64,000 nucleotides of DNA, taken from the NCBI GenBank assembly GCA_014896455.1, contig JADBKJ010000028.1, positions 1 through 64,000 of the forward strand, written 5' to 3'. This document shows positions 12,656 to 21,339 of the stretch, in pieces. Below the pieces are notes generated by a model. It did no database searches. It was not told the origin of the DNA and worked only from the letters and a program-made list of their open reading frames with translations. Origin of the DNA: Thermoanaerobacter sp. (lineage in GTDB: Bacteria; Bacillota; Thermoanaerobacteria; Thermoanaerobacterales; Thermoanaerobacteraceae). A program made the position numbers and the translations under genes. Each line of letters starts with the position of its first letter. Positions within the stretch are counted from its first letter, which is position 1.

Positions 12656-13765
12656 ATGTTTAAAAGAATGGAACAATATGAAAAGACTTCAGAAAAGAAA
12701 ATTTCTAGAAAACAAATGATATTTTTATTGGTCACAACTGTGATCTCAACAGCAGACGTTTTTTTGCCTTCTTTTGTGGCATTAGCTGCAAAACAAGATT
12801 CTTGGATTTCAGTCTTAATATCTTTTGTAACCTCCAGTATCGTCTTTGTCGTTTATTACAAACTAGCATTGCTCTTTAAAGAGGAAATACTTTTTTCTTA
12901 TGTGGACAAGATAGTTGGAAAATTTATAGGCAAAATAATAGCTTTCCTTTATTTATTGTTTATTTTACACGGTATTTCTTTAGTAATGAGAGAATTAATA
13001 GAGATCATGGTCAATGCTTTTATGCCTCACACCCCCCCAATAGTTTTCTATGTAGTCTTGATGATATCAGTAATGTACACCGTCTCAAAAGGTTTTTTAG
13101 CAATTGTCAAACTAAATGAGTTTTTATTTCCTATTGGAATGCTCCTATTGGCATTTGTAATCACTTTGAACCTTCCAAAAGTTGATATGACAAATTTTCT
13201 CCCAATACTCGAAGACGGCATAAAGCCCCCAATAATAGGTTCAATCCTCATTACTTCCTTCATGCTTGAAACAGTAATAATACTTCTTATATTTCCTCAT
13301 ATCTCAGAAAAAGAAGAGGCTTTAAAAGGAGGAATATTAAGCCTTGGAATATTAGCTCTTAGCATGATGTTGGGAGTTTTAGCAATAGGAATATTTGGAG
13401 CAAAAACTGCAGCAAATTTCCAATTTACAGCCTTGGAAATGGTGAGAAATATGAGAATTAGCGATTACATACAGCGATTTGATTCATTGGTAATGGCAAT
13501 GTGGTTAATGGGAATTTATCTTAAAATTGTAATATTTACTTATCTCTTCGCAAAAGGATTGGCTGAAACGATAAAATCCCCAGATTACCGCTTTATTTTG
13601 CTGCCACTTGCTACTTTGTTAATCCCGCTTTCCGAAAATGTGTCTGAAAGTTTAGATGGATTATACACTTATTTTCAAAGATGTTTTCCCTTTGAGGTCT
13701 TCTGGTTTGAAGTGTTTTTCCCTATACTTCTTTATATAATTGCAAAAATTAGAAAAATAAAATGA
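12656..13765 (+). CDS. gerKB: GerB-family endospore germination permease (GerAB/APC-type)
   Basis: Multi-TM protein KKISRKQMIFLLVTTVISTADVFLPSF..., adjacent and divergent to gerA/gerC. Confidence 0.9.
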   Translation: MFKRMEQYEKTSEKKISRKQMIFLLVTTVISTADVFLPSFVALAAKQDSWISVLISFVTSSIVFVVYYKLALLFKEEILFSYVDKIVGKFIGKIIAFLYLLFILHGISLVMRELIEIMVNAFMPHTPPIVFYVVLMISVMYTVSKGFLAIVKLNEFLFPIGMLLLAFVITLNLPKVDMTNFLPILEDGIKPPIIGSILITSFMLETVIILLIFPHISEKEEALKGGILSLGILALSMMLGVLAIGIFGAKTAANFQFTALEMVRNMRISDYIQRFDSLVMAMWLMGIYLKIVIFTYLFAKGLAETIKSPDYRFILLPLATLLIPLSENVSESLDGLYTYFQRCFPFEVFWFEVFFPILLYIIAKIRKIK

Positions 13766-14078
13766 GAGGAATTAGTATACATTCCTCTCAGTTTGTTGAC
13801 AAAGTTAAAAAATATTCAAAGGAGATATTTTGCATCGTCGCTCCGATGTTCCAAAGCGACAAAACTAAACTCGACTTTCGGGCTCCGGCAGGGTACCCCG
13901 TCAGGCGGCCTCCTTGCCTTAAGGTGCCCGCCTTCGCCCTCCTTGGCTTCGGCCCTGCCTCCACCCTCGGTCTTGCTAAGTTTTGTTACCGCTTTGTCAC
14001 AAGTCGCACCGATTGCAAAATATCTCCTTTGCGAAAGTTTGTCTACAGTCTGAGAGGAATTAGTATACATTCCTCTCA
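13763..14078. repeat. GC-rich imperfect palindromic element bounded by 28-bp palindromic direct repeats
   Basis: tgagaggaattagtatacattcctctca at 13763-13790 and 14051-14078; perfect inner inverted repeat caaaggagatattttgca (13817-13834) / tgcaaaatatctcctttg (14014-14031). Confidence 0.85.
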
Positions 14079-14836
14079 TATATTATTCTTAATCCTTCTA
14101 AAGTCAGCATATCATTCACTGTATTAATAGTTTTTGACTCCTCTGCAATCATTTTTGCAAAACCGCCTGTTGCTACTACATATGCATTTGGTGCAAATTC
14201 TTCTTTCATTCTACTTACTATATAATCCACCATTCCAACATGTCCATATATGATGCCTGATTGCATGCTGGCTACTGTATTTTTGCAAATAACAGTAGGC
14301 GGTTTTGTAAGTTCAATTTTAGGAAGTTTAGCAGTTCTTTGAAAAAGTGCATCAGCAGATATTGCCAATCCAGGAGCAATTATTCCACCTAAATACTCAC
14401 AATTTTTAGAAATTGCACAAAAAGTAGTAGCTGTACCAAAATCTATTACTATCACAGGGCCTCCATATATTTCATAAGCAGCTACAGCATTTACAATCCT
14501 ATCTGCCCCTACTTCTTTTGGATTATCATATTTTATGTTTATTCCTGTCCTTATCCCAGGACCCACGATTAAAGGCTTGGTATTGCAGTATTTTATAGTC
14601 ATTGATTCAAGTGTGTGCATAATAGGAGGTACAACAGAAGAAATTATAACTGCATCTACATCTCTAAGCTTTAAACCATTGTATTCAAAAAGCTGATTTA
14701 TCAACATCCCATATTCGTCAGAAGTTTTATTCCTATCTGTAGATATTCTAAAAGAATGCAAGAGTTTCTTCCCTTTAAAAATCCCCATTACAATATTTGT
14801 ATTTCCTACATCAAAAGCTAAAAGCAAATCCATCAC
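14060..14836 (-). CDS. coaX: Type III pantothenate kinase
   Basis: [63 protein letters not shown]-like [11 protein letters not shown]. Confidence 0.95.
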
Positions 14837-14872
14837 CTTCTTATTAAAATTAAGCAGGCATAAGCCTGCTTG

Positions 14873-15418
14873 TTATTTATTATACACTTTTTTCAAAGAC
14901 TTTACTATCATTGTTGTCAATATCACAGCTACAATAATTTCAAATATGCCATTTTTTAAAGCTACAAATAATGCAATATTAAGTGGCATATATTTCAGAA
15001 GCACTGCTAAACCCAAAACCCCGATGGTATTTGTTAAAGTACCTAATGCTGCTGCAATACCAACATTTTTAGTTAATTTGTAAGTATAATAGGCTACCAC
15101 TCCTATAAAAATTCTAGGCAATATGGCAATTATAGGGTCAGCAAAAAGAGGAGTATTTTGCCTTATAAAGCTGGTAAGGCCAAAAATCAAGCCTATAAAA
15201 GCTCCTACAATAGGGCCTTCTAATACTCCACCTATAATTGCCGGGATATGCATTGTAGTAGCATTAGCAATCCCTAATGGAATGTAGCCCAAAATAGTGG
15301 TAGATAAAACAATAGATATTGCAGCCAACATCCCTGCTACAGTGATCTGCCTTAAAGAAATTTTCGTTAACTTGCCTTTTTCCTTTTTTCTAACTGCTTT
15401 AATTTGCAACCTACTCAC
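14873..15418 (-). CDS. ECF transporter S component, probable pantothenate specificity (PanT-like)
   Basis: ISLRQITVAGMLAAISIVLSTTILGYIPLGIANATTMHIPAIIGGVLEGPIVGAFIGLIFGLTSF; adjacent to coaX; GTG start. Confidence 0.75.
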   Translation of the reverse strand: MSRLQIKAVRKKEKGKLTKISLRQITVAGMLAAISIVLSTTILGYIPLGIANATTMHIPAIIGGVLEGPIVGAFIGLIFGLTSFIRQNTPLFADPIIAILPRIFIGVVAYYTYKLTKNVGIAAALGTLTNTIGVLGLAVLLKYMPLNIALFVALKNGIFEIIVAVILTTMIVKSLKKVYNK

Positions 15419-15427
15419 CCCCGTTCC

Positions 15428-15510
15428 GGTTCCTTTTCAGGATACCGTTCCGAACGCCCAACAATATTAAATTTTTATCGGTTGTCAGGTTCGAAGACGA
15501 TACCCGCAAC
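15428..15510 (-). ncRNA. Tandem pan-like RNA motif in the 5' leader of the ECF S-component
   Basis: Minus strand GGGU[A]UCG-UCUU-CGA-ACCU (15487-15505) and GGU[A]UCC-UGAAAA-GGA-ACC (15428-15446), each with a bulged A; outer GUUG/CAAC and CGUUC/GAACG helices. Confidence 0.65.
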
Positions 15511-15513
15511 TCT

Positions 15514-15542
15514 ATTTTACCAAAAAAAGTCTTACTCATCAA
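15514..15542 (-). promoter_or_regulatory. Sigma-A type promoter for the S-component/coaX transcript
   Basis: Minus strand TTGATG-17 bp-TAAAAT (15537-15542 and 15514-15519), just upstream of the pan-like RNA. Confidence 0.6.
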
Positions 15543-15550
15543 TAATTTTT

Positions 15551-15949
15551 TTAATTCATAGTCACTAAAATATCTCCTGTGTTTACGGAAGAGCCTTTAG
15601 AAACATGTATGCTTGCTATAACTCCTTCTTCAGGCGCCATTATTTCATTTTCCATCTTCATAGCCTCTAAAATTACTACGACATCTCCCCGCTTTACCCT
15701 GTCACCTTCTTTAACTTTTACATCAAGAATTGTGCCTGGCATAGGCGCAGAAATTACTTTAGAGCCTTTAGCTGCCGGAGAAGGAGCTTCAGCTTTTGAA
15801 ACTGGCTCTAGAGTCGTCTGAGTTTGAATTACGTTAGGCTGTGAAACAGTTGCCATTTGTGTTATGTTAGAAACTTCATCCCTCTCTTTTATCTCCTCTA
15901 CTTCAACTTCATATACTTTGCCATTTACTGTAACTTTAAATTTCTTCAC
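15551..15949 (-). CDS. Biotin carboxyl carrier protein of methylmalonyl-CoA decarboxylase/acyl-CoA carboxylase
   Basis: VVILEAMKMENEIMAPEEGVIASIHVSKGSSVNTGDILV biotinyl motif EAMKM. Confidence 0.92.
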   Translation of the reverse strand: MKKFKVTVNGKVYEVEVEEIKERDEVSNITQMATVSQPNVIQTQTTLEPVSKAEAPSPAAKGSKVISAPMPGTILDVKVKEGDRVKRGDVVVILEAMKMENEIMAPEEGVIASIHVSKGSSVNTGDILVTMN

Positions 15950-15966
15950 AAAAATTCCTCCTTCAG

Positions 15967-16221
15967 TTACAATCTTGTTTTCATTTGCTCCTGCCGCCCC
16001 ACTCTAGCCCAGACTGGAACAGTCTCTGGAAATCTTACTATAGACTTTACATAAAAAGTACTTGTATCAGCTTGTAGATACAAAGCTATTGCCGCTGTAA
16101 TTGCAGCGATAAGCTCTGTATCTTCTTCTTTCCCCTCATTTACTTCCTTATCAATACTTTTTACTTCTTCTTTTTCCTCATCACTAAAGACTTTTTTTAA
16201 AAACTCCAAAAAACCTTTCAT
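15967..16221 (-). CDS. OadG/MmdD-like small subunit of methylmalonyl-CoA decarboxylase
   Basis: ELIAAITAAIALYLQADTSTFYVKSIVRFPETVPVWARVGRQEQMKTRL, between decarboxylase alpha and BCCP. Confidence 0.65.
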   Translation of the reverse strand: MKGFLEFLKKVFSDEEKEEVKSIDKEVNEGKEEDTELIAAITAAIALYLQADTSTFYVKSIVRFPETVPVWARVGRQEQMKTRL

Positions 16222-16233
16222 AAAAGCACCACC

Positions 16234-17784
16234 TTATAGAGGTATATTGCCATGTTTCTTAGGAAGACGACTCTCTCTTTTGCTAGAGAGCATATCAAAA
16301 GCTGATATAAGCCTTGGCCTTGTCTCAGAAGGAATAATTACATCATCTACATAGCCACGAGCTGCAGCTCTATATGGATTTGCAAAATTCTCTCTGTATT
16401 CATTTATCTTTTGCTGCCTCACTTCTGCAGGATTTTCTGCCTCATTGATTTCATTTTTAAATACAATGTTTGCTGCTCCTTCTGGACCCATAACCGCAAT
16501 CTCTGCCGTAGGCCACGCAAATACTATGTCAGCCCCTAAGTCTTTGCTGCACATTGCAAGATAAGCACCACCATAAGCTTTTCTCACAATTAAAGTCACT
16601 TTTGGTACAGTAGCCTCAGAATAAGCGTAAAGCATTTTTGCCCCATGTCTTATTATCCCGCCATATTCCTGATTTGTCCCAGGCAAAAATCCAGGTACGT
16701 CAACTATGCTTAGTATGGGAATGTTAAAAGCATCACAAAACCGAATAAATCTTGCTGCTTTATCAGAGGCGTTTATGTCAAGTACTCCTGCTAATACTCT
16801 TGGTTGATTTGCCACAATTCCTATTGTCTTGCCATTAAGCCTTGCAAAAGCTGTAATTATATTTTCTGCGTACATCTCCTGTGACTCTAAAAATTCTCCA
16901 TTGTCCACTATTTCTTTTATTAATTCTTTCATATCATAAGGCTTATTAGGAATGTCTGGAATTATCTCCATAAGTCTTTGAGAAACTCTATTGGGATTAT
17001 CCCCTGTCTCGTATTGTGGTGGGTCTTCTAAGTTGTTAGAAGGTAAATAACTCAATAAATTCCTCACCATTTTTAAAACTTCTTCATCATTAGGCCCTCT
17101 AAAATGTGCAACACCACTTACTCTATTGTGGGTTATTGAACCGCCTAATTCTTCAGGAGTAACCTCTTCTCCAGTTACTGCCTTTATAACTTGGGGACCT
17201 GTTATAAACATCTGGCTGGTTTTATCTACCATAAAAATAAAATCTGTCAATGCCGGTGAATAGACGGCCCCTCCCGCACTTGGACCCATTATCACGGAAA
17301 TTTGAGGTATAACGCCGGAGGCTAAGGTATTTCTGTAAAATATGTTTCCATAGCCTGAAAGAGCATCTACTCCCTCTTGTATGCGAGCACCTCCTGAATC
17401 GTTAAGACCTATTATAGGTGCTCCCATCTTCATTGCCATGTCCATCACTTTAGTTATTTTTTTTGCATGATATTCTCCTAATGAACCACCTAATACAGTA
17501 AAGTCCTGCGCATATACATATACCAATCTTCCGTCTATCGTACCGTAACCTGTCACAACCCCTTCTCCGGGATATTTTTGCTTTTCCATGCCAAAGTCAT
17601 AACAACGATGCTCCACAAAAGGGTCTATTTCTACAAAACTGTCCTTGTCAAGAAGCTTATATATTCTCTCTCTTGCAGTCAATTTTCCCTTTTCGTGCTG
17701 AACAGCTATTCTCTTAGCTCCTCCACCTTCTAAAACTTTCTCTTTCCTTCTTTTAAGTTCTTCTATCATATCATGGACGCCCAT
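16234..17784 (-). CDS. mmdA: Methylmalonyl-CoA decarboxylase alpha / propionyl-CoA carboxylase carboxyltransferase subunit
   Basis: [105 protein letters not shown]. Confidence 0.95.
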
Positions 17785-17884
17785 ACAATTTCCTCCTTAT
17801 AGCCTTACTGCAATTTAATAGTATCAGTTATTATTAGTACCTCTCAAAATAATATACCACATACTTTCCAAATACACAATAAAT

Positions 17885-18286
17885 TTAATCCCTCTGGCAA
17901 AGCTCTAAAAGAACTCCATTTGTACTTTTAGGATGTACAAAAGCTATTTTAGCACCTCCAGCTCCATATCTCGGTACCTCATCTATAAGTTTGATTCCCT
18001 TTTGCTTTAATTCTTCCAAAGTCTTTTCAATATCATCTACTTGAAGGGCTATGTGCTGTATACCCTCTCCCCTTTTTTCTATAAACTTTGCTATAGGGCC
18101 ATCATCGGAAGTAGACTCCAAAAGCTCTATCTCACTATCTCTTACTGGAATAAAAGCTGTCTTTACCTTTTGCTCTTCTACTACTTCTACCCCTGTTATT
18201 TCAAGGCCTAACACATCTTTATAAAATTTTGATGCTTCTTCAATACTTTTAACCGCAATACCTATGTGGTCAATTTTTTTTATCAT
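17885..18286 (-). CDS. mce: Methylmalonyl-CoA epimerase
   Basis: [60 protein letters not shown]-like. Confidence 0.93.
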
Positions 18287-18307
18287 TTTAATACCTCCTC
18301 ATAAAAT

Positions 18308-19243
<936 letters not shown>

Positions 19244-19245
19244 TT

Positions 19246-19647
19246 TTATACCGCCCTATTGACATGTTGTTTTATATATTCAATCACTGCAGAGGTAGGC
19301 GTACCGGGTGTAAAAATTTCCGCTATTCCATTCTCTTTCAAAAAAGGCATGTCTTCTTCGGGAATTATTCCTCCTCCTATTACTAGTATGTCATCTGCTC
19401 CTCTTTCTTTTAAAAGCTTGGTTATCTTGGGAAATAAAGTGTTGTGAGCTCCTGACAAAATGCTTAAAGCTACAACATCTACGTCTTCTTGTATGGCAGC
19501 TTCTGCAATTTGCTCAGGAGTTTGCCTAAGCCCTGTGTATATCACTTCCATTCCCGCGTCTCTTAAAGCTCTCGCAATTACTTTTGCCCCCCTGTCGTGA
19601 CCGTCTAATCCCGGCTTCGCTACTAATACTCTTATAGGTCTGTCCAT
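19246..19647 (-). CDS. mcmB: Methylmalonyl-CoA mutase small (B12-binding) subunit
   Basis: [62 protein letters not shown] (DxHxxG). Confidence 0.95.
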
Positions 19648-19659
19648 ATTTATCCTCCT

Positions 19660-21339
19660 TTACAGTATAATCTGCTGCTGATATTCTCCAAAAACGGAAC
19701 GCAACACATCTGTAATTTCACCTAATGTCGCATATTCCCTTACTGCATCTAATATCCAAGGCATCAAATTGTCGTCTCCTTCTGCAGCTTTTTTCAAAGC
19801 CTCTAAAGTCTTTTTCACACTGGCATTGTTTCTCATTTCTTTTACTTTAGCAATTTTTTGTTTTTGCAATTCTTCTACAGCAGGGTCTACTTTTAAAAGC
19901 CCTTTTGGCGGCTCCTCTTCAATTTGGAATTTGTTAAGCCCTACTATTACTCTTTCACCAGATTCTATCTCTTTTTGATATCTATATGCACTTTCTTGTA
20001 TTTCTTTTTGTATATATCCCAAATCAATAGCTCTTGCTGCTCCTCCTAATTCGTCAATTTTCTTTATATATTCAAAAGCCCTCTTTTCAATTTCATCCGT
20101 CAATTTTTCAACATAGTAACTTCCGGCCAATGGATCTGGAGTCTCACAAGCACCGCTTTCATAAGCAATAATCTGCTGCGTCCTTAAGGCAATTCTTGCT
20201 GAATCTTCTGTTGGAAGAGCAAGAGCTTCATCCCTACTGTTTGTATGTAGTGACTGAGTACCTCCTAAAACCGCAGCTAAAGCTTGAATAGTAACTCTGA
20301 CAATATTGTTGTCTGGTTGTTGCGCAGTAAGAGTGGAGCCTGCCGTTTGTGTGTGGAATCTCATCATCATTGACCTTGGGTCTTTAGCGTTAAATCTTTC
20401 TTTCATTATCTTTGCCCACATTCTTCTTGCTGCCCTAAATTTAGCGACTTCTTCGAAAAGGTCGTTGTGGGCATTGAAGAAAAAGGACAACCTTGGAGCA
20501 AATTCATCCACATCAAGACCTGCTTTTATGGCTGCCTCTACATAAGCTATCCCATTTGCCAAAGTGAAGGCCACTTCCTGTACTGCTGTTGCTCCTGCTT
20601 CTCTTATGTGATAACCGCTTATACTTATAGTATTCCACTTAGGAACATACTTAGAACAATACTCAAAAATGTTAGTGATAAGCCTCATAGAAGGACCTGT
20701 TGGGAAAATATAAGTTCCACGAGCTACATATTCTTTTAAAATATCGTTTTGAATAGTCCCATTCAACTTATCTGGAGTTACCCCTTGCTTTTCTGCAACT
20801 GCAATGTACATTGCAAGAAGTATTGCAGCAGGTGCATTAATCGTCATAGAAGTACTGACTTTGTCGAGAGGAATGCCGTCAAAGAGAATTTCCATGTCGT
20901 AAAGTGAATCTATGGCTACACCGACTTTACCAACTTCTCCTTCAGCCATTGGATGGTCAGAATCATAGCCTATCTGTGTAGGTAAATCAAAAGCCACACT
21001 CAAACCCGTCTGCCCTTGAGATAAAAGATATTTAAACCTTTTATTCGACTCTTCTGCAGTTCCAAATCCTGCATACTGCCTCATAGTCCAAAATTTGCCT
21101 CTATACATAGTAGGCTGTACGCCTCTTGTATAAGGATATTCTCCTGGGAAACCAATCTTTTCCAGATAATCTATATCACTTATGTCGTAAGGTGTGTAAA
21201 TCTCTTTAATCTCTATCCCAGACGAGGTCTTGAAGTCCTTTTTCCTCTCTGGAAACTTAGTTAACAACTTTTGCCTTTGATTGACTTCCCATTCTTCTTT
21301 CTTGCGCTTAATTTTTTCTAATTCTTCCTTGTCAACCAT
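19660..21339 (-). CDS. mcmA: Methylmalonyl-CoA mutase large subunit
   Basis: [82 protein letters not shown]. Confidence 0.97.

Follow-up and report, generated by a model that had tools for sequence, protein, structure and literature searches.

The window, a 64,000-nucleotide stretch of a Thermoanaerobacter sp. contig, carries a short leader ahead of a putative pantothenate (vitamin B5) uptake gene, panT, and a pantothenate kinase gene, coaX, which raises the question of whether this leader is a pan RNA and what such an RNA would do there. The pan motif is known before panB, panC and panD (Weinberg et al. 2010, PMC2864571); since 2010 no sensor has been known for it, and earlier descriptions come from biosynthesis genes only. 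In the open-access literature we found no paper placing pan before panT or coaX and nothing on a pan ligand, and neither subject is mentioned in a 2013 RNA regulon study (PMC3766115) or in a 2024 review of C. difficile riboswitches. From promoter to Shine-Dalgarno sequence, the leader in the window consists of two tandem hairpins with the pan core, which covary strongly in orthologs. It very probably represents a divergent tandem pan RNA that exerts feedback control over pantothenate uptake (panT) and phosphorylation (coaX).

The leader lies on the minus strand, and its two hairpins (15509-15417) stand immediately 3' of the promoter (Table 1). The promoter is as originally predicted, with TTGATG at 15542-15537 and TAAAAT at 15519-15514, separated by 17 nt. 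Equivalent promoters occupy the same place in the Thermoanaerobacteraceae orthologs, where the -10 box ends 3-4 nt ahead of the extracted hairpin segment, so that the 5' untranslated region is hardly more than the two hairpins. Both hairpins with bulged adenosines described in the original prediction are present, although it gave no strand and omitted one of these bases, A15485. In hairpin 1, which reads UUGCGGGU[A]UC-loop-GAACCUG[A]CAA, this adenosine bulges on the 3' side and A15501 on the 5' side. The core of hairpin 2 (15447-15427) is CGGU[A]UCCU-GAAA-AGGAACCG, with A15443 bulged on the 5' side. A GAA/GAA internal loop (15450-15448/15426-15424) stands where its 3' bulged A would be expected, followed by a predicted outer stem of UUCG (15454-15451) and CGGG (15423-15420). 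The leader thus has three of the four bulged adenosines of a tandem pan RNA, and is therefore classed as a pan variant.

Table 1 Features of the leader and the genes behind it, in window coordinates
Feature	Position	Strand	Basis
sigma-70-type promoter, TTGATG - 17 nt - TAAAAT	15514..15542	-	promoter check on sequence; equivalent promoters in orthologs
pan hairpin 1, canonical, 5 + 3 pairs	15482..15509	-	sequence, folding, Rfam pan, model R1
linker, A/U-rich, 24 nt	15458..15481	-	sequence; unconserved and of variable length in orthologs
pan hairpin 2, variant	15417..15457	-	folding, model R1, comparison with other leaders
Shine-Dalgarno GGGGG, partly within hairpin 2 outer stem	15418..15422	-	sequence; GGAGG in orthologs
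panT-type ECF S component	14873..15409	-	PF12822; best PDB matches 4rfs_S, 6zg3_C
coaX, type III pantothenate kinase	14060..14836	-	PF03309, NF009847

The variant form is shared by close relatives. The 5' arm of hairpin 2 reads GUUCGGAACGGUAUCC in the Thermoanaerobacter and Caldanaerobacter leaders examined and CGUCCGGUAUCC or similar in other genera, and the 3' bulged A, present in other genera, is replaced by the GAA/GAA loop (or paired) in this group. Judging from this comparison, one of the two bulged adenosines of hairpin 2 was lost in the Thermoanaerobacter/Caldanaerobacter group. The outer helix originally drawn for it, CGUUC/GAACG, can form, with a predicted energy of -14.4 kcal/mol, but the alternative with the GAA/GAA loop, in which UUCG pairs with CGG and Shine-Dalgarno bases, is predicted to be better (-17.3 kcal/mol). 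Because the segment is invariant within the group, covariation cannot pick between the two folds.

The pan motif named in the original prediction was compared with the leader by covariance models. At the gathering threshold, an Rfam search of the window returned tRNA only. Among Rfam families, pan (RF01749) nonetheless fits the site best and aligns over its full length, scoring 25.7 bits against a gathering score of 36.2; the altered hairpin 2 probably accounts for this low value. The window's own genus group contributes three further leaders, at 28.3 to 33.3 bits, and orthologous leaders from the sister genus exceed the cut-off with 40.9-45.6 bits. Since the window copy lies below the cut-off, homology rests on the orthologs and on R1, a covariance model that we built from 18 tandem panT leaders of other genera, with Thermoanaerobacter and Caldanaerobacter left out. 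R1 scores the window leader at 42.2 bits (E=4.8e-8; runner-up 13.5 bits), which is also its sole match at E<=1 in the whole genome (E 1.6e-6 genome-wide). It additionally recognises pan leaders of biosynthetic operons, and the panT and biosynthetic leader sets are therefore homologous.

Could the hairpins nevertheless be chance structures whose likeness to pan is coincidental? The sub-threshold Rfam score would allow it, as would the folding of the 116-nt leader, whose z-score is only -2.22 (4/200 shuffles fold equally well); the plus strand of the region shows nothing special (z -0.69). Against this stand the E-values of the independent model, the orthologous leaders above the Rfam cut-off and covariation. 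Across the 18 orthologous leaders from other genera, 94.2% of cells are paired, falling to 43.6% or less when partners are slid by one to three columns; both-sided changes are found in 41 cells, compared to 17.5 in shuffles, and the covariation score is 0.380 versus 0.226. Among 46 distinct hairpins proximal to the Shine-Dalgarno sequence, every one of the first five outer pairs is present in 42-45, with the alternatives U-A/C-G, G-C/G-U/A-U and C-G/G-C/U-A, and the 3' bulge position is A in 46/46. Homology and covariation are much stronger evidence for the leader RNA than the folding z-score, and coincidence, which we regard as vanishingly improbable, is refuted by covariation together with R1. 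The outcome that would have counted against the original prediction, an insignificant pan score with no covariation among orthologous leaders, was thus not the one obtained. On sequence and structural comparison, then, the window leader is a divergent pan RNA.

The genes behind the leader agree with the pantothenate ECF transporter and coaX that had been proposed: the kinase is of type III, and the S component is nearest to solved PanT chains. The two top PDB matches of its profile are 4rfs_S (E=4.5e-17), from 4RFS, the L. brevis PanT complex, and 6zg3_C (E=2.2e-7). The latter comes from ECF-PanT (6ZG3, PMC7755397); unlike the window genes, these transporters are from lactobacilli, and leader-RNA control does not appear to be part of their description. 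The panT start needs revision. Both the annotated open reading frame and the original prediction begin at GTG 15418, which overlaps the Shine-Dalgarno GGGGG (15422-15418) and is an unlikely start; we propose the in-frame TTG at 15409, because it is properly spaced and orthologs have GTG there before the same CAAATTAAAGC-like sequence. Between panT and coaX, a hairpin (AAGCAGGCTTATGCCTGCTT, 14852-14871) occurs that is also found in relatives; it could be a partial terminator tuning coaX relative to panT, and could uncouple coaX from the control of panT. On the other side, methylmalonyl-CoA decarboxylase and mutase type genes (15551-21339) end just upstream of the pan leader.

How widespread is this arrangement? 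A PanT-alignment scan of 84,980 species, with one genome per species, yielded 202 confirmed loci, of which the best 80 were used. By a strict rule that demands the pan core, four outer pairs and an adjacent Shine-Dalgarno sequence, a pan hairpin lies directly ahead of panT, on its ribosome-binding site, at 66 of these 80 loci, and coaX is downstream of panT at 71, the loci being related by descent, so that the counts are not independent events. R1, whose matches at panT loci likewise fall directly upstream of the gene, recovers loci missed by the strict rule, including L049, L075, L085, L094, L100 and L104. The pan-panT loci include Thermoanaerobacterium, Alkaliphilus, Geosporobacter, Peptoniphilus, Anaerococcus and Atribacteria MAGs; the tandem form predominates in Thermoanaerobacteraceae and the Alkaliphilus group, and Peptoniphilus and Anaerococcus have a single hairpin by the strict rule. 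The predicted link of pan RNA to uptake and kinase genes thus appears to hold in the window and in many other bacteria. Homology, the frequent linkage to coaX and the leader RNA together suggest that the S component transports pantothenate.

Several neighbouring observations were made during this survey. In Peptoniphilus phoceensis, a family S58 peptidase gene (PF03576; L068 3006-3968) is the immediate upstream neighbour of pan-panT, and at several related loci pan comes after similar coding ends. Genome G023, which already has a panT, contains a further panT-like gene that is split and more distant and is preceded by a pan RNA of 39.3 bits, above the cut-off (L030/L031, C2:53584-54072). Instead of pan, a THF riboswitch (RF01831; 80.5 bits; L028 1353-1448) precedes a distant homologue of the S component that is presumably a folate transporter. 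Like pan at panT, this leader RNA would control an ECF S component, but the RNA is unrelated; leader type therefore appears to track substrate.

Compared to the described pan motif, the window RNA has the same tandem hairpins, the same core surrounding bulged adenosines at the same places, and the same purine-rich tail. Besides its variant hairpin 2 and lower Rfam score, it differs in preceding panT-coaX, genes of the same pathway other than panB, panC or panD, and in ending on the Shine-Dalgarno sequence without a terminator. The contrast in terminators is seen across the leaders examined: 43 of 53 pan leaders ahead of biosynthetic genes run into an intrinsic terminator (counted by hand), and 0/88 extracted panT leaders have one. 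One RNA therefore seems to serve two expression platforms, which offer simple reporters. Translational control, as originally suggested for the window, is consistent with the absence of terminators and with a hairpin that ends on the Shine-Dalgarno sequence. In 25 of the 27 biosynthetic leaders tested, the terminator 5' arm finds its best pairing partner at the pan 3' tail, although, leader by leader, the antiterminator pairing was usually no better than in shuffles and the leaders are related. This tail is the GAAGG-like end of the Rfam consensus, which in panT leaders is the Shine-Dalgarno sequence; it is suggestive as the best candidate for the antiterminator strand. On a simple reading, the outer stem of hairpin 2 would free the terminator before biosynthetic genes or hide the Shine-Dalgarno sequence before panT, both meaning off.

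We envisage, as a working scheme, that plentiful pantothenate or a downstream product (phosphopantothenate or CoA) would be the signal, and that the partner binding the bulged-A hairpins would be either this metabolite or a protein, which might be dimeric. Binding would stabilise hairpin 2, which would mask the Shine-Dalgarno sequence and lower translation of panT, as well as that of coaX if the two genes are coupled; the sign of control would be off when bound. At biosynthetic operons, pan seems to work through the intrinsic terminator.

The location of pan on genes for vitamin B5 import and activation, both in this thermophile and in many other bacteria, narrows the candidates for the sensor, and suggests that what the RNA reports is the overall pantothenate or CoA status. 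A panB match was absent in 12 of 30 genomes sampled from the panT loci; 10 of these 12 satisfy the strict pan rule, and the other two (L085, L094) are matched by R1. Some are draft MAGs, and Caldanaerobacter subterraneus, Peptoniphilus phoceensis, P. mikwangii and P. raoultii are isolates. Given these genomes, PanB does not qualify as a general partner, and neither pantoate nor ketopantoate is a likely signal in such organisms; the occurrence of pan where panB is missing speaks against a signal from precursors or biosynthetic enzymes. The signal is thus probably pantothenate or something downstream of it, and pantothenate, phosphopantothenate, CoA, or a protein handling them remain as candidates.

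Pantothenate, phosphopantothenate or CoA might bind the bulged-A hairpins directly, without a protein, making pan a metabolite riboswitch. We consider this possible, if somewhat doubtful. The panT leader is almost entirely two hairpins, two expression platforms in different genes combined with deep conservation are typical of riboswitches, and CoA was still among the ligands without a validated riboswitch class in a 2022 review (PMC10043782). Yet a metabolite aptamer would usually be larger than one hairpin of ~25 nt with two bulged adenosines and an unconserved loop, many panT leaders possess just one hairpin, and Weinberg et al. judged the simple, dimeric form to be more like a protein site (PMC2864571).

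Among proteins, the type III pantothenate kinase of the same operon is a testable, weakly supported candidate, which would read the pan RNA as a dimeric repressor. Type III pantothenate kinases are dimers. Among 250 genomes of the phylum, CoaX was present in 103/105 pan-positive and 122/145 pan-negative ones (Fisher p=1.7e-4, ignoring relatedness, with five unlisted CoaX-negative genomes counted as pan-negative), and its gene is, as described above, usually downstream of panT. Pathway logic alone, however, explains that linkage, and no significant CoaX match was obtained in two pan-positive genomes of 97% and 99% completeness, so we rejected CoaX as an obligatory partner. That CoaX reads pan at all seems to us unlikely, and we give no better prospects to the fuller proposal, in which it would sense its own substrate or product via pan and shut down both uptake (Shine-Dalgarno) and synthesis (terminator) of vitamin B5.

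The source genome contains a second clear pan RNA, of the biosynthetic type, at C32:57657-57744 (G000; L001 1501-1588). The genome search with Rfam pan lists this leader (47.1 bits) and not the window copy, which R1 finds. In sister genomes, its counterpart is followed by a DUF2520 reductase-type gene and then by panB, panC and panD; in the source genome, the terminator stem is kept and no pan genes follow. Colinearity of the locus with sister genome G008 extends to the terminator stem and resumes at the 3' end of an aconitase gene, with a repeat of ~270 bp between them. As panB was not found in the source genome (90% completeness) and the operon is missing, the strain looks like a pantothenate auxotroph dependent on panT. 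The missing operon is also a possible assembly gap, given the 90% completeness and the multi-copy repeat at the junction.

The repeat itself, ~270-316 bp long, is present in at least 40 copies in the genome. One copy (L001 1197-1467) stands in place of the pan biosynthesis operon behind the orphan leader. Another, in the window (13763-14078), has exact terminal inverted repeats of 28 bp and overlaps the last codons of coaX, whose product ends in ERNVY compared to ERNVD in relatives.
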